Assembly (NCBI GenBank): GCA_016929795.1 | Contig: JAFGIA010000329.1 | Location: 1-12,795 of the forward strand | Source of the DNA: Anaerolineae bacterium | GTDB taxonomy: Bacteria; Chloroflexota; Anaerolineae; JAAYZQ01 | Direction of reading: 5' to 3' | DNA length: 12,795 nucleotides | In this document: positions 1,271 to 12,795 of the stretch, piece by piece | Position numbering within the stretch: the first letter of the stretch is position 1 | Layout: the number at the start of each line of letters is the position of its first letter | Program-made: the position numbers and the translations under genes | Notes under the pieces: model-generated | Seen by the model: the letters and a program-made list of their open reading frames with translations, nothing else | Told to the model about the DNA's origin: nothing | The model's database searches: none

Positions 1271-2839
1271 ATGAAGCGGACTCAATATCGTTCAATCGTT
1301 ATCGCACTGTTGATGGGGGCCTTGTGCCTACAGATCGTACCGGCATGGAACGTGAGCCGTGCCGCTTCGGTGCAGGATCAGCCAGCGTGGCAAATTCACC
1401 CCTCTTCACCCACTGGCTCCCTCTACAGCATCGACATGGTCGGCTCGGGACCAGGCTGGGCCGGCGGCGTCATTGGCTCGATGCTCAAGTTCGACGGCTC
1501 CGATTGGCAGACAACCTGGCTCGATTTTGACGAAGTCATCATGAGCATTGATCTGTGGGACGCATCGCTTGGCTGGGCCGTCACCAACCGTGGCAAGATC
1601 CTACAGTACAATGGGGCGGCCTGGCAGACCGTGGCCACCCCGGGCGAGTGGAACTGGCTTTCGGCAATTTTCGCCGCCAGTCCCCAGGATATCTGGGCGG
1701 TGGGTGAGGGCGGGGCAATTTTGCACTCGACCGGTGGAGGTTGGCAAAAGGTCGCTACCCCGCGGCCCACGTGGCTCAGCGGCATCGACATGGTCAGCCC
1801 CACCGATGGTTGGATCGTAGGCGGGGGGGTTATTCTCCACTGGGACGGAATGAGCTGGCAAGTGGCATACGAGCCGCCGAATCACGAGTGGATGCGCGGC
1901 ATCGACATGCTCTCCGCCACCGACGGATGGGCCGTGGGCACTGGCGGCTTGATCCTGCACTATGATGGCAGCCAGTGGAACCAGGTGGGAAGCGGGACAC
2001 AAATGGCGCTCAACGACGTGTCGATGGTGGATGCCGATTCAGGCTGGGCCGTGGGCGAATCCGGGGTGATCCTGCACTACGACGGTGGGAGTTGGCGTGT
2101 AGAAGACAGCAAGACGTTCAACGAGCTACGCTCGATTCACATGGTGAATGAAACGTGGGGTTGGGCCGTCGGCAAGCACGGGGTCATCCTCGAGTACCGC
2201 ACCAGCGGCGCCTATCCCCCAACGGCGACGCCCACCCCTCGCCCCACGCTGACGCCGATCCCGTCTGCCACATCCACGGCCACCAAGGCCCCCACTCTGA
2301 CACCCAGCACGACGCCCACCAGCGGCCCCACGAGCACCCCTCAACCGAGCGCGACAGCCACGTCGACGGGGGCACCTACCACTACCCCTTCGCCCACGCA
2401 GCCAGGCCCAACCAACACGCCCAGGCCAGGGACCACCGCCACACCCATCCCTGCGGCCAGCGCCACGGCCGCGCCGACCAACACGAGCGAGGCCTTGCCA
2501 GGTGCCGAGCCGGCGACGCCGGAACCAACCAGCACGCCACTGGCCGAGACGCCTGCCACGTCCCCTGGAACGACTGGACAGGTCGAGAGCAGCCCGACGA
2601 CGGAAGCGCTGGCCCAGGTAACAGCCACGCCCGAGCCCACGGCGCCGGCGATTGCCCAGGCCTCGCCCCTTCCCGTCGAGCCGCCGGCTTCAAGCGGAGA
2701 GGCCGCACAGGACGACGAGCCCGGGCCGGGGCGGTGGGTAATGATCGCCATCATCGTGCTGGTGCTCGGCATCGGTGCCCTGGTAGCCATTGGCGGCGCG
2801 GTGGCCGGTGGACTGTGGCTGCGCAGGAAAAAGATGTAG
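1271..2839 (+). CDS. Membrane-anchored seven-bladed beta-propeller surface protein
   Basis: A 522-residue protein. The start is the ATG at 1271, preceded by AGGAG at 1260-1264; the reading frame is open back to a GTG at 1142, but that stretch is not signal-like. Residues 1-32 form a signal peptide. Residues 51-310 hold seven repeats of about 38-40 residues with the pattern IDM-x-GWAVG-x-GG-ILHYDG-x-W, resembling BNR/Ycf48-like propeller repeats. The last repeat lacks its Trp strand, while a lone 'PAWQ' strand at 38-41 precedes the first, so the ring is probably closed by the N-terminus. Residues about 315-485 are a Thr/Pro/Ser/Ala linker. Residues 489-515 are a transmembrane helix followed by LRRKKM, giving an extracellular propeller on a stalk with a cytoplasmic basic tail. 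Ligand unknown. The glycosyltransferase gene starts 22 nt downstream and is probably co-transcribed. Confidence 0.88.
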   Translation: MKRTQYRSIVIALLMGALCLQIVPAWNVSRAASVQDQPAWQIHPSSPTGSLYSIDMVGSGPGWAGGVIGSMLKFDGSDWQTTWLDFDEVIMSIDLWDASLGWAVTNRGKILQYNGAAWQTVATPGEWNWLSAIFAASPQDIWAVGEGGAILHSTGGGWQKVATPRPTWLSGIDMVSPTDGWIVGGGVILHWDGMSWQVAYEPPNHEWMRGIDMLSATDGWAVGTGGLILHYDGSQWNQVGSGTQMALNDVSMVDADSGWAVGESGVILHYDGGSWRVEDSKTFNELRSIHMVNETWGWAVGKHGVILEYRTSGAYPPTATPTPRPTLTPIPSATSTATKAPTLTPSTTPTSGPTSTPQPSATATSTGAPTTTPSPTQPGPTNTPRPGTTATPIPAASATAAPTNTSEALPGAEPATPEPTSTPLAETPATSPGTTGQVESSPTTEALAQVTATPEPTAPAIAQASPLPVEPPASSGEAAQDDEPGPGRWVMIAIIVLVLGIGALVAIGGAVAGGLWLRRKKM

Positions 2840-2861
2840 CGCCCACTTGGGCCCATCCTCG

Positions 2862-5105
2862 ATGACCAACTCGGCGTCCCGGCGCCCGCGCGACGTTCTG
2901 ATCACGATCGTCCTGGGGCTGGCCCTGCTGGCCCTGGCGCTGGCCACGCGCCACACCTCACTCGGCGCCTTTGCCTGGCCCGACGAGCAGACGTGGCTCG
3001 AGCGCTCGGCCGCCTTTGTGCTGGCCGTCGAGCGGGGAGACCTGGCGGGCACCTACCTGGCCGATCATCCCGGCGTGGTGCCGATGTGGGGCTTTGGCAC
3101 CGCACTTGCCCTCCGCGCCCGGCTTACCGGCGACCACCAGGCCCTCGAGACCCTGGCGGCGGGTGAGTACGAAGGCGACTATCCAGCCCAACTGGCCGCG
3201 GCGGCGGCATTCACGGTGGTCTTGACCTCGCTGACCGTCGCCGCCGCCTACCTCCTGCTCATTCCACTCCTCGGGCGGGCGGGCGCCGCGTTGACCGGGC
3301 TGCTCCTCGCCCTCGATCCCTTCTACCTCACCCACTCGCGCATCGTCCACGTCGACGGCATCCTGGCCAGCGCCATGCTCCTCTCTGTGCTCAGCCTGCT
3401 CGTCTATTTGAAACGCCGCTCCACGAGTCTGTCATTGGGAGTTGATCCAGAGCGCGCGCCACTCAGCATCCAGGAGCCTGTCGTTGCGAGCGAGCGTCAG
3501 CGCGCGAAGCAACCCCCACATCAGGTCACGTGCCCAACGACGGGCCTGGGGATTGCTTCGGGCGCGAAACGACCGCGCCCTCGCAATGACAGATTTTCAA
3601 CTGCCTACCTCCTCCTCTCGGGGTTCACCGCGGGTCTGGCCTTGTTGACCAAAACACCGGCGCTCTTTCTTGTCCCCTTTACCGCCCTGGTGCTCGGCGG
3701 GCAGTGGCTCTGCCGCCGGCTCGGGCGCGATGGGTGGGGCAAGCTCGGGCAGCTCGCCGGCGCGTTCGGCATCTGGCTGGCGGTGGCCTGGGGCACCTTC
3801 CTTGCCCTCTGGCCCGCCACCTGGTCGGACCCCCTCTTTTTTCTGTGGCGCCTCTATCGCGCCTCGCGCTGGGGCGTGGTCGTGTCGCACGGCACCAACT
3901 TTTTCCTGGGACGCGTCGTGGAGGATCCTGGCCCTCTCTTTTACCCCGTGGTGCTCGCCTTTCGCCTGTCGCCCGTCGTCGCCATCCTGCTGCCCGTGGG
4001 GATCGTGCTTGCGGCACTCGCCTGGCGCCGCGGGCGGGACGTGCGCCTGCCGCTCGCCGGCTATGCCTTTCTCCTCTTTTTCACAATCATGGTCTCGCTG
4101 GCGGCCAAAAAAGGGGATCGCTACCTGCTGCCCGTCTTTCCAGTCGCCGCCGTCGTGACAGGTTGGACAGCGATGGAGCTGGTGGCTATCGCACGCGCGC
4201 AGGGGTGGATGTCGCGGCGCGTGGCCTGCGCCGCGGCCGCCGGCCTCTTGCTTCTCGCTTCACTCCTGTGGCTGCCGCTGGCACCGCACTATGGCGCCTA
4301 CTTTAACCCCCTCGCCGGCGGCGGCGCAGTGGCGGCGCGCACCTTCCCCTTTGGGCAGGGCGAGGGGCTGGAGTTGGCCGCCGAGTACCTGAATGCGCGC
4401 CACGAACGCGGCGACCTGGTGGTCGTCACCTTCTACCCACCCCAGTTCCGCTACTATTTCCACGGCGAGGCCACGTCGCTGCGGCGTGGCGAGTGGGACG
4501 AGACGTGGCAGTTTGCCGATTACGTCGTCTTTTACATCAGCCAGGTGCAACGCGACCTTCCCACGCCCGAGCTGGTGCACTTTTTCCTGGCGCAAGAGCC
4601 CGAGTACGTGGCCCGGATCGACGGCGTGGATTTCGCGCGCGTCTATCGCTCGCCGCTGCTCCTCTCGGGAGAGGGTCCGGGGGCCGAGCGCGCGCTCGAC
4701 AGCCGGGTGGTGGGCGACAAGCTGGCGCTCACCAGCTATGCCCTGAGCGATCCGCTTCCCGCGCCGGGCGACACGTGGTATGTGACGCTCGCCTGGCAGG
4801 CGACAGAGCAGCTCGACCGTGACTATTCCTTCGAGACACTGCTGGTGGACGACGCCGGGCAGGTAGTGTGGCAGGAGATCGGGCCACCCTTCGACGGCCA
4901 ATTTCCGACCTGGTGGTGGCGGCCAGGGCGAACCCATTATCAAAGATATCACATTCCACTGCCGGCTGCCCTCCCGCCAGGCAACTACCGGCTGCTGGCG
5001 CGCGTGTTCGACCCTGCCGGCGGCCAGACACTGCCCCCCGCACAGCACAAAGCAGTAGACCGGCCCGGCTACCTGGACGTGATCGGGGTCCGGATCGCGC
5101 CATAA
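2862..5105 (+). CDS. GT-C membrane glycosyltransferase (PMT/ArnT-like, GT39/GT83 type)
   Basis: A 747-residue polytopic protein expected to move a sugar from a lipid-phosphate donor to an acceptor outside the membrane. TM1 is at 11-29. It is followed by WPDEQ with acidic residues D41-E42 where GT-C enzymes keep the catalytic Asp, then HPG at 69-71. HVDG at 163-166 follows a later helix, and KKGDRYLLPVFP at 416-427 is typical of the PMT/ArnT superfamily. Several more helices extend to about 470. Residues about 480-747 form a soluble, probably extracytoplasmic domain ending in a beta-sandwich-like part (WWWRPG, then PPGNYRLLARV). The ATG at 2862 has no clear Shine-Dalgarno; the open frame upstream overlaps the previous gene. 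A palindromic repeat is translated at residues 206-243, enlarging a loop that is usually short. Acceptor unknown; the adjacent Ser/Thr-rich propeller stalk is a candidate. Confidence 0.82.
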   Translation: MTNSASRRPRDVLITIVLGLALLALALATRHTSLGAFAWPDEQTWLERSAAFVLAVERGDLAGTYLADHPGVVPMWGFGTALALRARLTGDHQALETLAAGEYEGDYPAQLAAAAAFTVVLTSLTVAAAYLLLIPLLGRAGAALTGLLLALDPFYLTHSRIVHVDGILASAMLLSVLSLLVYLKRRSTSLSLGVDPERAPLSIQEPVVASERQRAKQPPHQVTCPTTGLGIASGAKRPRPRNDRFSTAYLLLSGFTAGLALLTKTPALFLVPFTALVLGGQWLCRRLGRDGWGKLGQLAGAFGIWLAVAWGTFLALWPATWSDPLFFLWRLYRASRWGVVVSHGTNFFLGRVVEDPGPLFYPVVLAFRLSPVVAILLPVGIVLAALAWRRGRDVRLPLAGYAFLLFFTIMVSLAAKKGDRYLLPVFPVAAVVTGWTAMELVAIARAQGWMSRRVACAAAAGLLLLASLLWLPLAPHYGAYFNPLAGGGAVAARTFPFGQGEGLELAAEYLNARHERGDLVVVTFYPPQFRYYFHGEATSLRRGEWDETWQFADYVVFYISQVQRDLPTPELVHFFLAQEPEYVARIDGVDFARVYRSPLLLSGEGPGAERALDSRVVGDKLALTSYALSDPLPAPGDTWYVTLAWQATEQLDRDYSFETLLVDDAGQVVWQEIGPPFDGQFPTWWWRPGRTHYQRYHIPLPAALPPGNYRLLARVFDPAGGQTLPPAQHKAVDRPGYLDVIGVRIAP
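3479..3591. repeat. Palindromic dispersed repeat (REP/MITE-like) inside the glycosyltransferase gene
   Basis: The left arm 3479-3518 begins TGTCGTTGCGAG and ends GCGCGAAGCAACCCCCA. The right arm 3547-3591, read on the minus strand, begins TGTCATTGCGAGGGCGC and ends CGAAGCAATCCCCA. The arms match almost completely at both ends and diverge in the middle, around a 28-nt centre. The 'TGTCATTGCGAGCG...GAAGCAATC' type of sequence is one I know as a dispersed intergenic palindrome in many bacterial genomes, including Chloroflexi. Here it is read through in frame (VVASERQRAK, then IASGAKRPRPRND). A further half-match, TGTCATTGGGAG at 3430-3441, lies 38 bp upstream and may be an old partial copy. Confidence 0.75.
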
Positions 5106-5137: not shown

Positions 5138-6379
5138 CTACGGCTGCCAGTCGAGCGGGTATACTCCCTCGTCGATGCTGGTGTTCGTCAGGCGTAGCTG
5201 GCCGCTGCCGTCGGCCTTCATCACATACACCTCCAGGTTGCCGTCGCGTTTGGACAAAAAGGCGATCCAGCTCCCATCTGGCGACCAGCGGGGCATAAAG
5301 TCCCCTCCAGCCATGTTGGTCAGGTTTACGACACTGGTGCCATCGATCTCGATCGTGGCGATCTCGTAGCTGCCATTCAGGTAGGTAGAAAAGACAATAC
5401 GCTGGCCATCAGGAGACCAGTGGGGAGTATAGTCGGCATACTCATTTTCGGTGAGTTGCTCCCTGGTATCGGTCAACAGATCGTATATCCAGATCTCGCT
5501 GTCCTTTTCATTCGGATCCATAAAGTGGATGTAGGCCAGCTTGGTGCTGTCAGGCGCCCACGTCACCGACCTGTCGGGTACCTCGTCGTGGGTCACTCGA
5601 TCGCCCGAGTAGGCGACATTCGGGTCCAGGAGAAAAACATCTTCCCAAAAGTCGAGCCCGCAGATGTAGGCCAGGTAGGCGCCATCGGGTGACCAGACCG
5701 GATCGTGGCTCTGGCACGAGTGATTGGTCATCCTTCTCTGGTTACTGCCGTCAGCATCCATGATGTACACTTCGTACCGGTCGTCGCGATGCGAGTGAAA
5801 CGCAATCTTGGTCCCGTCCGGCGACCAATCGGGCGCGCGATCCGAGCCCGCCGAGTTGGTCAGGTTCCTGACATTGGTGCCGTCGGCGTTCGCGACATAG
5901 ATCTCTTCGTTGTCGCCGGCGTGCACCCAGGCGATCTGGCTGCCGTCAGGCGACCAGTCGGGGTCGAAATCGCCGCCATCCAGGCGGCTGACATTGACGA
6001 GATCGCTCCCGTCCGTATTCACGGCATAGATCTCGTAGGTCGACCCCGCCTCATTCGCCTTACTTTCGAAGGCGAGGCGAAGGGAATCGGGATCGCGCGT
6101 GGGGGTGGGCGTAGGCGTGGGCGTGAACGTCGGCGTCGACGTCGGCGTGGCGGTCGGTGGGACGTAGAGACGGAGCACCAGGGGCAGGTAGAACTTGAAG
6201 ATGATCGGAGTTTCCTCGGCGGCGGGACGCGCACTCGGATCGTCTACATCGGTCACGAAGAGAGATAACCCCGACCCGGCACCAGCGGCAGCGGGTGTGA
6301 GGGCGAGAAGAGCAATCAGAAACAACGACACGGCCGCGACGACGCCGGCTGCGGCCATCCATCGAACGATCATACGCAT
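5138..6379 (-). CDS. Secreted seven-bladed PD40/TolB-like beta-propeller protein
   Basis: A 413-residue protein. The start is the ATG at 6379, fixed by AAGGAGG (minus strand, 6394-6388) eight bases upstream; the open frame continues further up but lacks a ribosome site. Residues 1-35 are a signal peptide, or an uncleaved anchor. FYLPLVLRLYVPP at 63-75 and the PT-repeat linker at 76-94 are typical of Chloroflexi surface proteins. Residues 100-413 carry PD40 repeats of about 43 residues: W-[SA]-P-D appears six times, each followed by IAF/IAW, E-[IV]-Y and DG-x-x-LT. The first blade lacks its WSPDG strand and the chain ends in VYPLDWQP, so seven blades with C-terminal closure are expected. No TolB N-terminal domain or enzymatic domain is present, so a binding or scaffold role is likely. 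It converges with the glycosyltransferase gene, 32 nt between stops, with no visible terminator between them. Confidence 0.87.
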   Translation of the reverse strand: MRMIVRWMAAAGVVAAVSLFLIALLALTPAAAGAGSGLSLFVTDVDDPSARPAAEETPIIFKFYLPLVLRLYVPPTATPTSTPTFTPTPTPTPTRDPDSLRLAFESKANEAGSTYEIYAVNTDGSDLVNVSRLDGGDFDPDWSPDGSQIAWVHAGDNEEIYVANADGTNVRNLTNSAGSDRAPDWSPDGTKIAFHSHRDDRYEVYIMDADGSNQRRMTNHSCQSHDPVWSPDGAYLAYICGLDFWEDVFLLDPNVAYSGDRVTHDEVPDRSVTWAPDSTKLAYIHFMDPNEKDSEIWIYDLLTDTREQLTENEYADYTPHWSPDGQRIVFSTYLNGSYEIATIEIDGTSVVNLTNMAGGDFMPRWSPDGSWIAFLSKRDGNLEVYVMKADGSGQLRLTNTSIDEGVYPLDWQP

Positions 6380-6478
6380 ACAGGTAACCTCCTTGTCCTG
6401 TCGGCCTGACCGACCGCGACGCGAGCACGGCGCCTTCGCCGCGACGGGCCGGGTCGGGGGCATGAATTGATTGGCACT

Positions 6479-6654: not shown

Positions 6655-7502
6655 ATGATTCCGACCGGTCCTATCGAGGACGTAACCCTGGTTGTGACAG
6701 CCCACCAACCGACAGACGGGCTGGCCCACCTGGCAGCCGAGACGCTGCCCTGGCTCGCCGGCCACTATGCCGCGCTGGTTGCCTACTGCTCACGCGATAC
6801 CCATCCGGCCATCCTCCACCTGCTGGCAGAGCACGGCGCGACCGTGCGGCGCGATCCCAGGGAGTCACAGGGTATCCTCGGCATCGGCGAGGTGCGGCGC
6901 GCCACGCTACGCGCCGGCCTCGAAGCGGGCACCGCCCACCTTCAGATGTGCGACTTTGACCGCGCCCTCCACTGGGCGGCGCACTATCCGGACGAGATGG
7001 AAAACACAATCGCCGGCGTAGCAGGCCACGACCTGCTCGTGCTCGGCCGCACAGCGCGCGCCTGGGCCACCCACCCAGCCTACCAACGCGACACCGAGCC
7101 GCTCTTCAACCACGCCTTTGCCCTCGCCACCGGCCTGGCGTGGGACATCGGCGCCGGGTCACGCGGGTTGTCGCGGCGTGCCGCCGAGGCGCTGCTGGCG
7201 CTGTCGCGCGAGCAGACGGTGGGGGTGGATGCAGAGTGGCCCCTCCTTCTCCTGAACCACAACCGCCAGGCAGAAGCCAACGGCCTCCCCCCCTTCGGCT
7301 CAGCTACCGATCATGCGAAGGGCTCGAGTTCGAAACAGCCGACAGGTTTGGCCCCGAGATCGAGGCCGCCGGCGGCTACGAGACGTGGCTGGCCGGTGTC
7401 GAGGCCAGCCCGGCCCGCTGGGCCTTCCGCCTGCATGTGGCCTATCTCATCACCCAGGCCATCGCCAACTATGCCCCACCAATCGCCAAACGTAAATCGT
7501 GA
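6655..7502 (+). CDS. Nucleotide-sugar-transferase-like protein, frameshifted
   Basis: The start is the ATG at 6655 with GAGGTGA at 6643-6649 five bases upstream. The first frame reads MIPTGPIEDVTLVVTAHQPT and has a GT-A-like layout: a hydrophobic first strand, a later 'CSRDTHP', and a CDFDRALHW stretch around residue 101 that could be a DXD-type metal/nucleotide site. After residue about 213 (NGLPP) the frame turns into low-quality Arg/Pro/Ser sequence. The frame one base back instead continues sensibly as LRLSYRSCEGLEFETADRF and onward to a TGA at 7500-7502. The switch lies in a run of seven C at 7287-7293; an eighth C would give a 282-residue protein. Read literally, the first frame runs to a stop at 7690-7692, across the next promoter. 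There is no signal peptide or membrane segment. The glycosyltransferase idea is tentative. Confidence 0.65.
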
Positions 7503-7521
7503 ATCACAAATCACAAATCGA
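7494..7521. repeat. Four-copy heptanucleotide tandem repeat
   Basis: AAATCGT, GAATCAC, AAATCAC and AAATCGA follow one another without gaps, spanning the stop codon of the preceding gene and ending 7 bp before the next -35 box. Possibly a slippage-prone spacer. It contains GTGAATCAC at 7499-7507, which also occurs at 152-160. Confidence 0.5.
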
Positions 7522-7527
7522 TCCGCC

Positions 7528-7556
7528 TTGACAGATCGACGCACCTCTGATATACT
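7528..7556 (+). promoter_or_regulatory. Promoter of the peptide-type ABC transporter operon
   Basis: TTGACA (7528-7533), a 17-bp spacer and TATACT (7551-7556) make one of the best promoters in the window, as expected for abundant binding proteins. Initiation is expected near 7563. Confidence 0.8.
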
Positions 7557-7562
7557 AAATCG

Positions 7563-7771
7563 CGCTTGTCAAACAAAGGCGAGTGAAGATTCGTCGTTTC
7601 GCCAGACAATGGCCCGTGCTGGTTGGAAGAAACGACAGCGCGTACTTTTTTCGCAACAGGAGTACGCCGAGCGACATCTGGAGAGGGGGTGATCATAAGA
7701 AAAGCCTGAGCAGTTCGATGATTCGACTGAAAGATTGCCGAACCATGAAGTGACTGAAGGAGGAGACTACA
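7563..7771 (+). promoter_or_regulatory. Long leader of the ABC transporter operon
   Basis: About 210 untranslated nucleotides precede the GTG at 7772. GTCGTTTC at 7593-7600 pairs perfectly with GAAACGAC at 7629-7636. GCGTAC at 7640-7645 can pair with GTACGC at 7662-7667, enclosing a T6 run (7646-7651) in the loop. Because the T run can lie either just after the first stem or inside the second, a two-state attenuator is conceivable, but the first stem is nine bases from the T run. I do not recognise a known riboswitch. The ribosome site AAGGAGGAG at 7757-7765 closes the leader. Confidence 0.4.
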
Positions 7772-9592
7772 GTGACAGGCAAACGTGCAGTATTTTCTAT
7801 CCTGCTGGTTCTCGCCCTGGTGACCAGCTTTCTAAGTGCATGCGGCGCCACCCCTGTGCCAGAGGCCACCCAGGCACCGGCACAGCCCACCTCCGCTGAG
7901 GCCCAACCGGAGGCCACCGAAGCCCCGCCGCCCGAGCCCACGGCTGCCGAGCCCGAGCCTGCCGCCGGCGGCACCTTCATCTTTGGCCGCGGCGGCGACT
8001 CGGTCCAGCTCGACCCGGCCATCGTCACCGACGGCGAGAGCTTTCGCGTCACCGGCCAGTGCCTCGAGCCCCTCTACCAGTACGAGCCCGGCTCCACCAC
8101 CCCCATCCCGGCCCTCGCCACCGAATGCTCGCCCAACGACGACGGCACCGAGTGGACCTGCGCCCTGCGCCAGGGCGTCAAGTTCCACGACGGCACCGAC
8201 TTTAACGCCGACGCCGTCATCTTTAACTTTGAGCGCTGGCGCTTCACCGACAACCCCTACCACTTTGAGAGCCAGGTCTTTGAATACTACGAGTACATGT
8301 GGTCCGGCTTTGACGACGCCAGCGTCATCACCGCCGTCGAAAAGGTCGACGACTATACCGTCAAGTTCGTCCTGGGCGCGCCCGTGGCCCCCTTCCTGGC
8401 CAACCTGGCCATGGACATGTTTGCCATCTCCAGCCCGACGGCCTTTGAGCAGTACGGCGAGGACTATGGCCTGCCCTCCGCCGGCTGCGTGGGCACCGGT
8501 CCCTTCAAGTTCGTCGAATGGGTCGAGGCCGACCACATCACCGTCGAGGCCAACGACGACTACTGGGGCGGCCGCCCAACCATCGACCAGATCGTCTTCC
8601 GCGTCATCCCCGACGACTCGGCTCGCTACCTGGCCTTGCAGGCCGGCGACATCCACGCCCTGGAACAGGCCACGCTCGAGGACATCCAGGCCGCCGAAGC
8701 CGATCCCAACCTCTACGTCCAGGCCCGCCCCGCCCTCAACACCGGCTACCTCGCCTTCAACTATGCCCTCGAAGAGATGAAGGACATCAACTTCCGCAAG
8801 GCCGTGGCCCACGCCATCAACCGCCAGGGCCTGCAGGAGAACTTCTTTGGGACCTACGGCGAAGTGGCCACCAACTTCTTGCCGCCGCTGATCCTGGGCC
8901 ACAACGACGACATCGAGGATTGGGCCTACGATCCCGACCTGGCCAAGCAGTATCTGGCCGATGCTGGCTTCCCCGATGGCCTCAGCGAGGTGACCCTCGC
9001 CCAGGACATCGTGGATGCGGAAGGCAACGTCGTCTATGCCGCCGGCGACAAGATCCCGCTGCGCCTCTACTACCTGCCCATCACCCGCTTCTACTTCCCC
9101 AGCCCCAAAGAGGTCGCCGAGGGCATGGCGGCCGACCTGGCGCGGGTTGGCATCAACGTCACGCTCGAACTGGCCGGCGACTGGTCGACCTACCTCGGCC
9201 TGCGGCGCACCGGACAACTGGTCGGCCTCTACCAGCTCGGCTGGGGTGGCGACAACGGAGACCCGGACAACTTTCACGGCTACTTCTGGGGCTTTGGTGG
9301 CGACGACAGGGTTGGCGACGATCCTTCAGCCTGGGTCAAATCACCCGACAAGCGCGAGGGCTTTTACGCCAACACCGAGGTGGCCGCCCTCTGCTACCAG
9401 GGCCAGATCAACCCCGACCGCGCCGAGCGAGAGCAGATCTACAAAGAGATCGAGCAGCTCCTGCACGACGATGTCGCCCGCGTGTGGTTGGTGCACAACA
9501 ACACACCGCTTCTCTTCTCCAATGTCGTGAGCGGCTACGTCGCTCAACCCGTGGGCGCCGACTACTACGAGTTCGTCGTCCTGGAGCAATAA
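7772..9592 (+). CDS. ABC transporter substrate-binding lipoprotein, family 5 (peptide/nickel type)
   Basis: A 606-residue lipoprotein that should capture a solute, probably a peptide or similar, outside the membrane and deliver it to a Dpp/Opp-type permease. The GTG start at 7772 is set by AAGGAGG eight bases upstream. The signal peptide ends in the lipobox LSAC, with Cys24 the lipidated residue. Residues 25-65 form a Pro/Ala/Glu/Thr tether. SBP_bac_5 covers 66-606, about the normal length: an early LDPAIVTD segment, FHDGTDFNADAVIFNFERW typical of the family, a CVGTGPFKFVEW strand, DDYWGGRPTID, and a late LGWGGDNGDPDNF. First gene of the operon; a near-identical domain occurs in the next gene. 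Substrate cannot be read from the sequence. Confidence 0.95.
   Translation: MTGKRAVFSILLVLALVTSFLSACGATPVPEATQAPAQPTSAEAQPEATEAPPPEPTAAEPEPAAGGTFIFGRGGDSVQLDPAIVTDGESFRVTGQCLEPLYQYEPGSTTPIPALATECSPNDDGTEWTCALRQGVKFHDGTDFNADAVIFNFERWRFTDNPYHFESQVFEYYEYMWSGFDDASVITAVEKVDDYTVKFVLGAPVAPFLANLAMDMFAISSPTAFEQYGEDYGLPSAGCVGTGPFKFVEWVEADHITVEANDDYWGGRPTIDQIVFRVIPDDSARYLALQAGDIHALEQATLEDIQAAEADPNLYVQARPALNTGYLAFNYALEEMKDINFRKAVAHAINRQGLQENFFGTYGEVATNFLPPLILGHNDDIEDWAYDPDLAKQYLADAGFPDGLSEVTLAQDIVDAEGNVVYAAGDKIPLRLYYLPITRFYFPSPKEVAEGMAADLARVGINVTLELAGDWSTYLGLRRTGQLVGLYQLGWGGDNGDPDNFHGYFWGFGGDDRVGDDPSAWVKSPDKREGFYANTEVAALCYQGQINPDRAEREQIYKEIEQLLHDDVARVWLVHNNTPLLFSNVVSGYVAQPVGADYYEFVVLEQ
7967..9592 (+). 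repeat. Duplicated SBP_bac_5 module, copy 1
   Basis: This 1,626-bp segment and the one at 10675-12300 are the same length, with no insertion or deletion needed to align them end to end, including the last codon before the stop. By hand I count about 36 differing residues out of 541, roughly 93% identity. The first 125 bp (7967-8091) differ at a single base. Confidence 0.9.
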
Positions 9593-9614
9593 CCGTAGTG
9601 TGGAAGAATATCTG

Positions 9615-9681
9615 CTCAATAATCGGGGATTGGGGTGTGTGCGGTGCCCGCACACGCCCCAACTTCCCCCCCTTTATTGAG
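9615..9681 (+). terminator. Long nested hairpin between the two binding-protein genes
   Basis: A 15-bp inner stem pairs 9630-9644 with 9648-9662 around a TGC loop (one G-U pair). GGGG at 9625-9628 can pair with C residues at 9666-9672, and CTCAATAA (9615-9622) pairs perfectly with TTATTGAG (9674-9681). There is no terminal T tract, so it is more likely an mRNA-stabilising or partial-termination structure that lets the first binding protein be made in excess. Read on either strand it is equally stable. Confidence 0.6.
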
Positions 9682-9723
9682 ATGATACGTGGAAGAATCA
9701 AATAACCAAAGGAGGAGATTGTG

Positions 9724-12300
9724 ATGATCGGTAAGCGTTCACTCTTTTCTGTGCTGCTGGTCCTGACCCTGATAGCCAGCATGTTAGCGGCGTGTGGTGC
9801 CACGCCCGAGCCGGAAGCGACCACCGCTCCCCAGGAACCGGCGGCGCCGCAGCCCACCTCAGCTCCAGCCGAACCGGGTGAAGAGGACCTGCTCGACCAG
9901 GTCATGGCCGCTGGCAAGCTGGTGGTGTCGACCGACCCCAACTATGCCCCGCAGAGCTTTATCAACGATGCGGGCGAGCTCGATGGATTCGACGTCAAAG
10001 TGGCCCAAGAAGTTGCCGGGCGACTCGGCGTCGAGGTCGAATTCGTCACGCCTGACTGGGACCTGATCACCGCCGGCAACTGGGGCGGACGCTGGGACCT
10101 GAGCGTTGGATCGATGACCCCCACCGAGAGCCGCGCCGAAGTACTCTGGTTCACCGCCCCCTACTACTACACTCCGGCTTCGTTCGCCGTGCACAAGGAC
10201 AACACAAGCATCAAGGACGTGTCTGACCTTTCGGGCAAGACCGTCGGCCTGGGCACAGCCACCACCTACGAAGCCTATCTCGACGGCTCGCTGGCGATCA
10301 TGGGCGGCGAGATCATGTACGATCCGCCCTCGGGCATCACCGTGCAGCCCTATGCCACCGACGCCGAGTCGATCGAGGATCTGAGCCTGGGTGATGGCGT
10401 GCGTCTCGACGCCGTCATGTCGGCCCAGCCGACGATCCAGAACGCCATCGACAGCGGCCTGCCGCTCAAGTACGTGGGCACGCCGGCCTTCTACGAGCCG
10501 CTCGCCTTTGCTCTCGACAAGAGCCGTGGCAAGTCGGATGCGATGCTCGCCCGGCTCAACGAGATCCTGGCCGAGATGCACGGGGACGGCACCCTCACGG
10601 CGCTGTCCACCGAGTTTTACGGCATCGACCTCACCACGCTGGTCAAACCCGGCGAAGCCCCGGCCGTGGGTGGCGGCGGCACCTTCATCTTTGGCCGCGG
10701 CGGCGACTCGGTCCAGCTCGACCCGGCCATCGTCACCGACGGCGAAAGCTTTCGCGTCACCGGCCAGTGCCTCGAGCCCCTCTACCAGTACGAGCCCGGA
10801 TCCACCACGCCCATCCCGGCGCTCGCCACCGAGTGCACGCCCAACGACGACGGCACGGAATGGACGTGTGCGCTGCGCGAGAACGTCATGTTCCACGACG
10901 GCACTCCTTTTAACGCCGACGCCGTCATCTTTAACTTTGATCGCTGGCGCTTCACCGACAACCCCTACCACTTTGAGAGCCAGGTCTTTGAGTATTACGA
11001 GTACATGTGGGGCGGCTTTGACGACGCCAGCACCATCACGGCCGTCGAAAAGGTCGACGACTATACCGTCAGATTCGTGCTGAGCGCGCCGGTAGCGCCC
11101 TTCCTCGCGAACCTGGCGATGGACATGTTCGCCATCTCCAGCCCTGCCGCCTTTGAGCAGCACGGCGAGGACTATGGCCTGCCCTCCGCCGGCTGTGTGG
11201 GCACCGGTCCCTTCAAGTTCGTCGAATGGGTCGAGGCCGACCACATCACCGTCGAAGCGTACGACGACTACTGGGGCGGCCGCCCGACCATCGACCAGAT
11301 CGTCTGGCGCGTGATCCCCGACGACTCGGCTCGCTACCTGGCCCTGCGGGCCGGCGACATCCACGCCCTGGAACAGGCCACGCTCGAGGACATCCAGGCC
11401 GCCGATGCCGATCCAGATCTGTACGTCGAGGCCCGTCCGGCGCTCAACACCGGCTACCTGGCCTTCAACTATGCCATCGAAGAGATGCAGGACATCAACT
11501 TCCGCATGGCCGTCGCCCACGCCATCAACCGCCAGGGCCTGCAGGAAAACTTTTTCGGGGAGTATGGTGAAGTAGCCACCAACTTCTTGCCGCCGCTGAT
11601 CCTGGGCCACAACAACGACATCGAAGACTGGGCCTATGATCCCGACCTGGCGCGGCAGTATCTGGCCGATGCCGGCTTCCCCGATGGCATCAGCGAGGTG
11701 ACCCTGGCCCAGGACATCGTGGATGGTGAGGGCAACGTCGTCTATGCCGCCGGCGACAAGATCCCGCTGCGCCTCTACTACCTGCCCATCACCCGCTTCT
11801 ACTTCCCGAGCCCGAAAGAGGTCGCCGAGGGGATGGCTGCCGACCTGTCCCGGGCCGGCATCAACGTCACGCTCGAACTGGCCGGCGACTGGTCGACCTA
11901 CCTCGGCCTGCGGCGCACTGGCCAACTGGCCGGGCTGTACCAGCTGGGCTGGGGTGGCGACAATGGTGACCCCGACAACTTCCATGGCTACTTCTTTGGC
12001 TTTGGTGGTGCTGACAAGGTCGGCGACGATCCTTCAGCCTGGGTCAAGTCACCCGATATGCGCGAGGGCTTTTACGCCAATCAGGAAGTGGCCGCCCTCT
12101 GCTACGAGGGACAGATCAATCCAGACCGGGCGGAGCGAGAGCAGATCTACAAAGAGATCGAGCAGCTCCTGCACGACGATGTCGCCCGCATCTGGCTGGT
12201 GCACAACAACACGCCGCTCCTCTTCTCGAACGTGGTAAGCGGCTACGTGGCGCAGCCCGTGGGCGCTGACTACTACGAGTTCGTCGTCCTGGAACAGTAG
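9724..12300 (+). CDS. Fused two-domain substrate-binding lipoprotein: SBP_bac_3 plus SBP_bac_5
   Basis: An 858-residue lipoprotein. I choose the ATG at 9724 over the GTG at 9721 because it aligns exactly with the paralogue start; AAAGGAGG lies at 9708-9714. Lipobox LAAC, Cys24. Residues 25-52 are a tether. Residues about 53-308 are a family-3, amino-acid-type binding domain: LVVSTDPNYAPQSF, GFDVKVAQEVAGRLG, then MTPTESRAEVLWFTAPYYY with R137 at the carboxylate-binding position, and GKTVGLGTATTYEAYL. Where HisJ-type proteins have the amino-group-binding Asp, this one reads LDAVMSAQ (228-235). A short linker ending in Gly residues leads into an SBP_bac_5 domain at 318-858, about 93% identical to the preceding protein. 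The frame is continuous across the join with no stop or slippery run, so it is a real fusion. It lies between a single-domain paralogue and a DppB-like permease. Confidence 0.93.
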   Translation: MIGKRSLFSVLLVLTLIASMLAACGATPEPEATTAPQEPAAPQPTSAPAEPGEEDLLDQVMAAGKLVVSTDPNYAPQSFINDAGELDGFDVKVAQEVAGRLGVEVEFVTPDWDLITAGNWGGRWDLSVGSMTPTESRAEVLWFTAPYYYTPASFAVHKDNTSIKDVSDLSGKTVGLGTATTYEAYLDGSLAIMGGEIMYDPPSGITVQPYATDAESIEDLSLGDGVRLDAVMSAQPTIQNAIDSGLPLKYVGTPAFYEPLAFALDKSRGKSDAMLARLNEILAEMHGDGTLTALSTEFYGIDLTTLVKPGEAPAVGGGGTFIFGRGGDSVQLDPAIVTDGESFRVTGQCLEPLYQYEPGSTTPIPALATECTPNDDGTEWTCALRENVMFHDGTPFNADAVIFNFDRWRFTDNPYHFESQVFEYYEYMWGGFDDASTITAVEKVDDYTVRFVLSAPVAPFLANLAMDMFAISSPAAFEQHGEDYGLPSAGCVGTGPFKFVEWVEADHITVEAYDDYWGGRPTIDQIVWRVIPDDSARYLALRAGDIHALEQATLEDIQAADADPDLYVEARPALNTGYLAFNYAIEEMQDINFRMAVAHAINRQGLQENFFGEYGEVATNFLPPLILGHNNDIEDWAYDPDLARQYLADAGFPDGISEVTLAQDIVDGEGNVVYAAGDKIPLRLYYLPITRFYFPSPKEVAEGMAADLSRAGINVTLELAGDWSTYLGLRRTGQLAGLYQLGWGGDNGDPDNFHGYFFGFGGADKVGDDPSAWVKSPDMREGFYANQEVAALCYEGQINPDRAEREQIYKEIEQLLHDDVARIWLVHNNTPLLFSNVVSGYVAQPVGADYYEFVVLEQ
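10675..12300 (+). repeat. Duplicated SBP_bac_5 module, copy 2
   Basis: Partner of 7967-9592. The signal peptide, tether start (CGATP-x-PEAT-x-AP) and ribosome site are also shared between the two genes, so the whole gene was duplicated and the SBP_3 domain was either inserted in this copy or lost from the other. Confidence 0.9.
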
Positions 12301-12352
12301 CTGCTGCATCGTGGCTCCGTTCAAGGATGAAGCGGACGTGAACTAGGATCAC

Positions 12353-12393
12353 ACAGGGGGTGTGGCTGCCTTCTGGCCGGCCGCACCCCCTGT
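12353..12393 (+). terminator. Hairpin between the fused binding protein and the permease
   Basis: ACAGGGGGTG (12353-12362) pairs perfectly with CACCCCCTGT (12384-12393), and GGC/GCC bases inside can extend it. No T tract follows. It lies in a 169-nt gap that otherwise holds no gene, before the ribosome site of the permease. A partial terminator or 3'-end stabiliser for the binding-protein mRNA is likely. Confidence 0.6.
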
Positions 12394-12469
12394 CTGCTTG
12401 AGCACCGGGATCCGGGCCCACGGCCGGGCCGATCTCCTGTGTGTGAGCCGGTACTAGAGTGGAGGAAGC

Positions 12470-12795
12470 TTGACCCGATACGTAGTCCGTCGCCTTGTGA
12501 CCCTGCTGCCAACGCTGCTGGGGGTGACCATTGTCATCTTTCTTTTCCTGCGCCTCATCCCCGGCGACCCAGCCGTGGCCATGCTTGGCGAGCACGCCGC
12601 TACCGAAAATGTCGAGCGCATTCGCGAACAGCTTGGCCTGAACCGCCCCCTCTTCCTGGACCGGGAGGCGCTAGAAGAGGGTGACATTGGTGGCTTCTTT
12701 GACACGCAATACATTCGATACGTGGGCCGGTTGCTCCGCGGCGACCTGGGCGACTCGATTCACCGGCGCATTCCCATCAACGACACACTCAAGGA
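12470..12795 (+). CDS. DppB/OppB-type ABC transporter permease, 5' part
   Basis: The first 108 codons of an inner-membrane permease; the gene leaves the window at the right edge. The start is a TTG at 12470 with GGAGG at 12461-12465, a short spacing; it gives (M)TRYVVRRLVTLLPTLLGVT, the typical DppB N-terminus with the first helix near residues 9-30. The family motif LRLIPGDPA and 'IREQLGLNRPL' follow. Between GLNRPLF and YIRYVGRLLRGDLGDSI there is an extra acidic and aromatic segment (DREALEEGDIGGFFDTQ) compared with classical DppB. Full-length members are about 310-340 residues. It should form the channel with a DppC-like partner and take substrate from the binding proteins encoded just upstream. 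Confidence 0.92.
   Translation, partial: MTRYVVRRLVTLLPTLLGVTIVIFLFLRLIPGDPAVAMLGEHAATENVERIREQLGLNRPLFLDREALEEGDIGGFFDTQYIRYVGRLLRGDLGDSIHRRIPINDTLK

Follow-up and report, generated by a model that had tools for sequence, protein, structure and literature searches.

Can a single receptor molecule serve two different ABC importers? Such importers are usually described with one receptor family per permease family. The question is raised by a gene in the window, i.e. the whole stretch of 12,795 nucleotides of Anaerolineae DNA analyzed here, whose product joins a domain of the SBP_bac_3 family and a domain of the SBP_bac_5 family in one lipoprotein. The bacteria concerned belong to a lineage that is known largely through DNA taken from the environment. 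The features of the locus are as follows.

7528..7556, + strand: promoter-like TTGACA-17-TATACT ahead of the first receptor gene; TG precedes the second hexamer
7772..9592, + strand: DppA-like lipoprotein of 606 aa with a single SBP_bac_5 domain, a paralogue of the fusion protein (from Pfam and alignment)
9724..12300, + strand: SBP_bac_3-SBP_bac_5 fusion lipoprotein, 858 aa from ATG 9724 (859 from GTG 9721)
9724..9879, + strand: predicted lipoprotein signal peptide (Cys24) and Pro/Ala/Glu-rich tether of the fusion (from sequence; pLDDT below 50 at 24-51)
9880..10647, + strand: SBP_bac_3 domain, type a, with Arg137 kept and the ammonium-site Asp replaced by Ala234 (ATG numbering)
10648..10674, + strand: interdomain linker of about nine residues (pLDDT below 50 at 311-316)
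10675..12297, + strand: DppA-like SBP_bac_5 domain in canonical order; an Arg and an Asp match DppA Arg355 and Asp408
12470..12795, + strand: DppB-type permease, 5' part only, starting at 12470, the window ending inside the gene (from profiles)

The fusion is encoded by an open reading frame of 859 aa (9721-12300, + strand) with zero internal stops, which starts at GTG 9721 or ATG 9724 with GGAGG upstream. The sequence-only reading of this DNA had described an uninterrupted frame with a single lipobox, and this is indeed what is found: one lipobox, LAAC (residues 21-24, ATG numbering), marks the product as a lipoprotein. A simple lipobox pattern is present in 36 of the 45 fusions with a complete start, and the signal peptide and tether of the window's fusion are 62% identical to the start of its paralogue. 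Pfam matches SBP_bac_3 (PF00497) to residues 67-301 from the GTG (104.7 bits versus a cut-off of 26.4, profile positions 1-131 of 132) and SBP_bac_5 (PF00496) to residues 363-762 (305.4 bits versus 32.4, profile positions 1-364 of 368). The domain borders proposed earlier (53-308 and 318-858, counted from the ATG) are in line with the point at which the paralogue begins to align, residue 319 in GTG numbering, and with the low-confidence linker at 311-316. An AlphaFold model of the full chain, made with a 40-sequence alignment, has a mean pLDDT of 83.8 and falls below 50 only at residues 24-51, 116-119 and 311-316; in this prediction, which had been suggested as a check, both domains are complete and confidently folded. 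Foldseek placed the SBP_5 part of the model on GbpA and DppA with TM scores by target of 0.87-0.88. No permease domain was detected by Pfam within the 859 aa, and the protein is thus not a receptor of the GlnPQ type. GC (0.645 and 0.635) and GC3 (0.848 and 0.849) hardly differ between the two parts of the gene, and the idea of a foreign insert was rejected on these grounds. A 708-aa open frame with high GC3 lies opposite the fusion (9859-11985, - strand) and was not taken as a gene.

A misassembly at the join (10648-10674; suspected at about 10640-10680 by the sequence-only reading) is ruled out because the same architecture occurs on many contigs: full-length fusions, 57-84% identical, are found on dozens of other contigs, from Anaerolineae where named. 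In a search of 5.8 billion proteins, the 120 best of the listed matches, among them the two from the window itself, comprise, with architectures labelled by our own profiles, 62 SBP3-SBP5, 2 LysM-SBP3-SBP5, 40 SBP5, 9 BMP-SBP5, 3 SBP8-SBP3-SBP5, 2 SBP8-SBP5, 1 LysM-SBP5 and 1 fasciclin-SBP5 proteins. With 62 matches sharing the architecture on many contigs and in many genomes, an assembly or annotation artefact is hardly conceivable. Nor do homologues always encode the two domains as separate genes; a single locus (L101) has an unfused pair, with SBP3, SBP5, DppBCDF and a PAAT permease as separate genes of one operon. A scan of 84,980 species with one genome per species gave 49 loci, all but two of them titled as Chloroflexota or as groups belonging to this phylum; the two are a MAG titled 'Neomarinimicrobiota' (L033) and, at 24% identity, a match in Lachnospiraceae (L049). 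Among 396 sampled genomes of the class that includes the genome of L001, 57 match the fusion or a part of it at E 1e-120 or better, 72 match the window's SBP_3 head at 1e-60 and 60 match SBP3b of L006, the other type of SBP_3 head. These counts are those of samples: the homology searches scored part of the candidates, and the class searches 2, up to 6 and up to 7 per genome.

The head of the fusion is exchangeable among relatives. The SBP_5 subfamily of the window occurs with SBP_3 heads of two types and with BMP, SBP_8, SBP_8 plus SBP_3, Peripla_BP_6, LysM, fasciclin and, once, Ser/Thr kinase domains. Conversely, window-type SBP_3 heads (77-84% identical) are carried in L094, L096 and L103 by SBP_5 modules that share just 26-29% identity with that of the window, and occur in SBP3-SBP3 tandems (L097, L099) and before SBP3b (L070). 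Heads have thus been swapped in both directions. Peripla_BP_6 fusions are also seen in L033 and L118. On a FastTree tree of 139 SBP_5 core segments, which has some long branches and 5'-cut rows (e.g. L005_3 and L007_3) that may have lost a head to a contig end, the presence or absence of an SBP3 head requires 24 changes. A single origin of the fusion by descent is unsupported, as the SBP3-headed canonical rows need 15 changes, 12 of them forced by starred branches. The kinase-headed protein (L035, 739-3447), in which a Ser/Thr kinase domain is joined to the window's SBP_5 subfamily, could possibly be a peptide-sensing receptor kinase.

The SBP_5 module also varies in its topology. In 30 of 50 fusions it is circularly permuted, positions ~105-479 preceding 1-100 (for example L139 14408-16885 and L163 8011-10452, both on the - strand, and 28 more), and that of the window has the canonical order. 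The first topology profile contained canonical and permuted members; a rerun with a canonical-only profile gave the same 30/19/1 split of the 50. Permuted SBP_bac_5 domains are found under SBP_3, BMP and Peripla_BP_6 heads, and also make up a large family (P0121-P0240), most of whose members have no sizeable head (95 of 119 are shorter than 640 aa). In a single-domain SBP_5 protein of L013 (7422-9122, 25-26% identity), the segment matching residues 341-511 of the window paralogue comes before that matching 1-268, and the protein seems to be permuted at a different place.

In the window, the tandem receptor does lie beside a single-domain SBP_5 paralogue (7772-9592) and a DppB permease (from 12470), as first described. 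Over 541 aa these copies of SBP_5 share 93% identity, with a dN/dS of 0.12 at a dS of 0.32. Both copies look maintained, and this ratio argues against a pseudogene copy. After duplication, the headless copy may have lost a head that it once had, since near relatives also have the fused form; in the SBP_5 tree the pair falls in a supported five-row set with L003 (headless), P0053 (SBP_8-headed) and P0002 (SBP_3-headed). No terminator-like site was found in the two gaps that separate the SBP_5 gene, the fusion and DppB. The promoter-like site has 11 of 12 matches and is the one such site in 7500-12795, versus 0.9 expected from shuffles, and as a promoter of the first receptor gene it is suggestive only. 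A PD40 propeller protein (5138-6463, - strand) and a PMT-type mannosyltransferase (2790-5105, + strand), both named by Pfam, adjoin the receptor genes.

What could the two modules bind? In amino-acid receptors of the SBP_3 family an Arg binds the alpha-carboxylate and an Asp the alpha-ammonium group of the ligand. Arg137 of the window's head aligns with the carboxylate-binding Arg of AncQR (4zv1), and Ala234 is found in place of the ammonium-binding Asp. All 34 type-a SBP_3 domains have A, S or P instead of this Asp, which is kept in 54 of 57 type-b domains. Because type-a domains lack it, the ligand of the window-type head may be a compound without a free alpha-amino group. For the SBP_5 module a dipeptide appears the likeliest ligand, since the alignment to 1dpp_A places Arg and Asp at positions 355 and 408 of DppA, which are ligand residues there.

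The permease genes beside the fusions bear on the question. Neighbours were annotated by profiles built from sequences named by Pfam or NCBIfam, or clustering with such sequences. The counted set consists of 36 distinct SBP3-SBP5 fusions and 30 single-domain SBP_5 genes, each with at least 4 kb downstream, and a PAAT permease was counted if on the same strand and within 9 kb. Such a permease accompanies 29 of the 36 fusions versus 2 of the 30 single SBP_5 genes (Fisher p 6e-10, kinship ignored), and DppB plus DppC lie downstream of 33 of the 36. Behind fusions of canonical order the permease is present in 14 of 15 cases, L171 included. According to the profile annotation, 23 of the 29 PAAT-positive fusions have the order fusion-DppB-DppC-PAAT permease, and in 13 of these a PAAT ATPase comes next (L004, L006, L029, L046, L113, L155, L158, L159, L166, L171, L174, L175 and L177). 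NCBIfam names for sampled PAAT permeases and ATPases are of the cystine/glutamine/ectoine type. The sequence-only reading had proposed one transporter fed by two receptors. This may apply in the window itself, where both SBP_5 copies could feed one DppBC, but relatives usually encode two translocators, and one receptor serving two transporters is the better reading because of the difference between fusions and single SBP_5 genes in PAAT permeases.

Excluded from the 36 and 30 were duplicates, genes with less than 4 kb downstream, WIN_7772 and L034_9818 (whose operon also has a fusion), 5'-cut rows showing no head and other heads (BMP, BP6, PK, FAS); the BP6 label of L003, covering 49 aa of signal region, was disregarded. 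For L103_9130 and L103_6351 the PAAT-positive status was entered manually on the basis of L138, a locus that overlaps theirs and whose 5'-cut copy the script had filed as single SBP_5. Before hand correction the script counted PAAT permeases in 27/35 versus 3/33 (3/32 without fusion-bearing operons) and DppBC in 32/35 versus 33/33; the addition of L103_6351 brings DppBC to 33/36 for the fusions.

Unfused genes mostly keep to their own permease type. Of 23 single SBP_3 genes followed by 4 kb of sequence, 18 are accompanied by a PAAT permease and 2 by DppBC, and those of window type in L106, L135 and L140-L142 stand directly before a PAAT permease and ATPase. SBP3-SBP3 tandems have PAAT genes in 4 of 4 cases and DppBC in none. 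DppD/F genes occur in 6 of the 36 operons with a fusion versus 20 of 30 single-SBP_5 operons, and an MR_MLE (dipeptide-epimerase-like) gene in 0 of 35 versus 11 of 33. The MR_MLE gene follows DppBCDF in L020 (16136-17158) and 10 other single-SBP_5 operons, pointing to dipeptides as a probable substrate there.

The association between SBP_3 head and PAAT gene is strong in number, with few separate origins behind it. A kinship-aware comparison has just 3 independent head/no-head pairs with branch support. When 200 pairings were made, the PAAT gene accompanied the head in an average of 2.5 of these pairs and went against it in one pair in a few pairings (median p 0.25). Some neighbours may be there by chance, since these regions hold many amino-acid importer genes. 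The one failure of the control is L003, which has PAAT genes despite having no SBP_3 head; its SBP_5 shares 90% identity with that of the window. Seven of the 36 fusions have no PAAT permease within reach: L136, L137 and L163 likewise have no DppBC in reach, and L115, L133, L134 and L162 do have DppBC. The L163 fusion precedes two BPD_transp_2 permeases, and in L136 and L137 a separate SBP_3 gene is found upstream of the fusion. These exceptions fit a swapped or re-used head, yet count against a double receptor.

Other heads offer single cases of such pairing. A BMP-SBP5 fusion in L012 lies beside divergent BMP-type importer genes, a Peripla_BP_6-SBP5 protein in L031 is encoded behind a LivF-like gene, an SBP3-Peripla_BP_6 protein in L184 (2516-4453) precedes two BPD_transp_2 permeases and a LivG-like ATPase, and a Peripla_BP_6-SBP3 protein in L178 (6350-8434, - strand) precedes a PAAT permease. 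Peripla_BP_6 and SBP_3 are thus joined in either order, each time before the permease type of the C-terminal domain. Unusual permeases were also seen. PAAT permeases with an N-terminal WD40-type propeller occur in L097 (673-2907, - strand), L107 (11540-13717) and L111 (16915-19137), named by Pfam and two of them by NCBIfam, and genes of L096 (3-2027, - strand) and L103 (1-1479, - strand) cluster with them. DppB-type permeases of 771-778 aa are found in L111 (10730-13066), with a C-terminal permease domain and a weak propeller-type match ahead, and, by profile only, in L170 (6095-8410, - strand). In L012 a BMP receptor domain is fused to a BPD_transp_2 permease (2781-4910, - strand), divergent from the BMP-SBP_5 fusion.

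As the window ends inside DppB, we infer that its operon continues with DppC, a PAAT permease and a PAAT ATPase. Among the loci compared, the DppB fragment is nearest to those of L003 (80.6%), L006 (79.6%), L008 (79.6%) and L009 (75%). In L003 and L006, DppB is followed by DppC, PAAT permease and PAAT ATPase; the L008 contig ends after DppC, and L009 has DppC without a PAAT permease. The contigs of the nearest fusions, L001 and L002, end too early to show downstream permeases.

On balance we lean towards a double-headed receptor that feeds two ABC translocators of one operon, SBP_3 delivering to PAAT and SBP_5 to Dpp. One lipid anchor would carry the SBP_bac_3 head and then, behind a short linker, the DppA-like SBP_bac_5 module. 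Each module would catch its own ligand and dock on its own translocator, SBP_5 on DppBC and SBP_3 on the cystine/glutamine/ectoine-type PAAT permease encoded behind DppC, often with a GlnQ/TcyN-like ATPase. The fusion would tie the two receptors to a 1:1 ratio, hold both beside both channels, and the head could be exchanged for another SBP family, as in relatives. Where DppD/F is missing, DppBC may be powered by genes elsewhere in the genome or by the PAAT ATPase. That Anaerolineae have a modular ABC uptake, in which a tethered chimeric receptor with exchangeable heads serves two translocators of one operon and a single PAAT-type ATPase may power both where DppD/F is missing, is a tentative proposal that we rather doubt.

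The SBP_3 domain could instead be an accessory head that binds a second ligand and tunes the Dpp importer, as a sensor or occupancy switch, with no feeding of PAAT. The missing ammonium-site Asp in all type-a domains, which are perhaps no plain amino-acid receptors, speaks for this, as do the four loci with DppBC and no PAAT permease in reach (L115, L133, L134 and L162). We consider it unlikely in view of the PAAT permease gene near most fusions, and of the unfused type-a SBP_3 genes that immediately precede genes for a PAAT permease and ATPase. It could also be that no new mechanism exists, co-expressed receptors that share a lipobox having been joined and heads being gained or lost nearly neutrally. 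The 24 head changes on the SBP_5 tree, the headless copy beside the headed one in the window and the unfused operon L101 are all consistent with this, but the recurrence with distinct SBP_5 subfamilies (L094, L096, L103) suggests that fusion was favoured, and we give near-neutral joining little credence.

Finally, both domains might feed the same DppBC and widen its substrates, for which the tandem receptor domains of GlnPQ on one translocator (PMC8025302) are a precedent. SBP_3 and SBP_5 are different families, their single genes stand by PAAT permeases and by DppBC, respectively, and most fusion operons include a PAAT permease gene, which makes a shared DppBC improbable. If the double-headed receptor with two translocators is real, it would break the rule of one receptor family per permease family, make receptor-translocator docking testable within one molecule, and be a way for Chloroflexota to couple the uptake of different nutrients. 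The exchangeable heads constitute a natural experiment in domain shuffling.

The sequence-only reading named no earlier description of this combination, and our literature search, covering titles and abstract starts of the papers listed, with most subscription journals outside its scope, found no description of an SBP_3-SBP_5 chimera or, in the same titles and abstract starts, of a circularly permuted SBP_bac_5. The terms 'fused', 'fusion' and 'tandem' are absent from the main text of the SBP survey PMC9602780 by term search. A naturally circularly permuted ABC receptor for sugars, TpMglB-2 (Tp0684), is described in PMC4990184; it is a Type I/cluster B sugar receptor, whereas the permuted receptors here are SBP_bac_5 proteins. 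Compared with DppA of the DppABCDF importer, the SBP_5 module is similar (29% identity, TM by target 0.88 to 1dpp_A), but its 244.4 bits are below the cut-off of 1005 of the NCBIfam equivalog NF043070, the fusion has an SBP_3 head, and DppD/F are rare in fusion operons. The PAAT importers GlnHPQ, TcyJLN and EhuABCD share the SBP_3 family with the fusion, and in relatives PAAT permease and ATPase genes lie behind it; here, in contrast, the receptor is half of a chimera, and the window-type head is without the ammonium-site Asp. A close parallel in architecture is GlnPQ of Lactococcus lactis, which like the fusion has two substrate-binding domains per chain serving an ABC importer; those of GlnPQ are attached to a single transporter's transmembrane domain (PMC8025302), and SBP_3 is matched twice in a tandem of this type (6h30). 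The fusion differs from GlnPQ in joining two families, in having a lipid anchor and no permease in the chain, and in the two translocators encoded nearby in its relatives.
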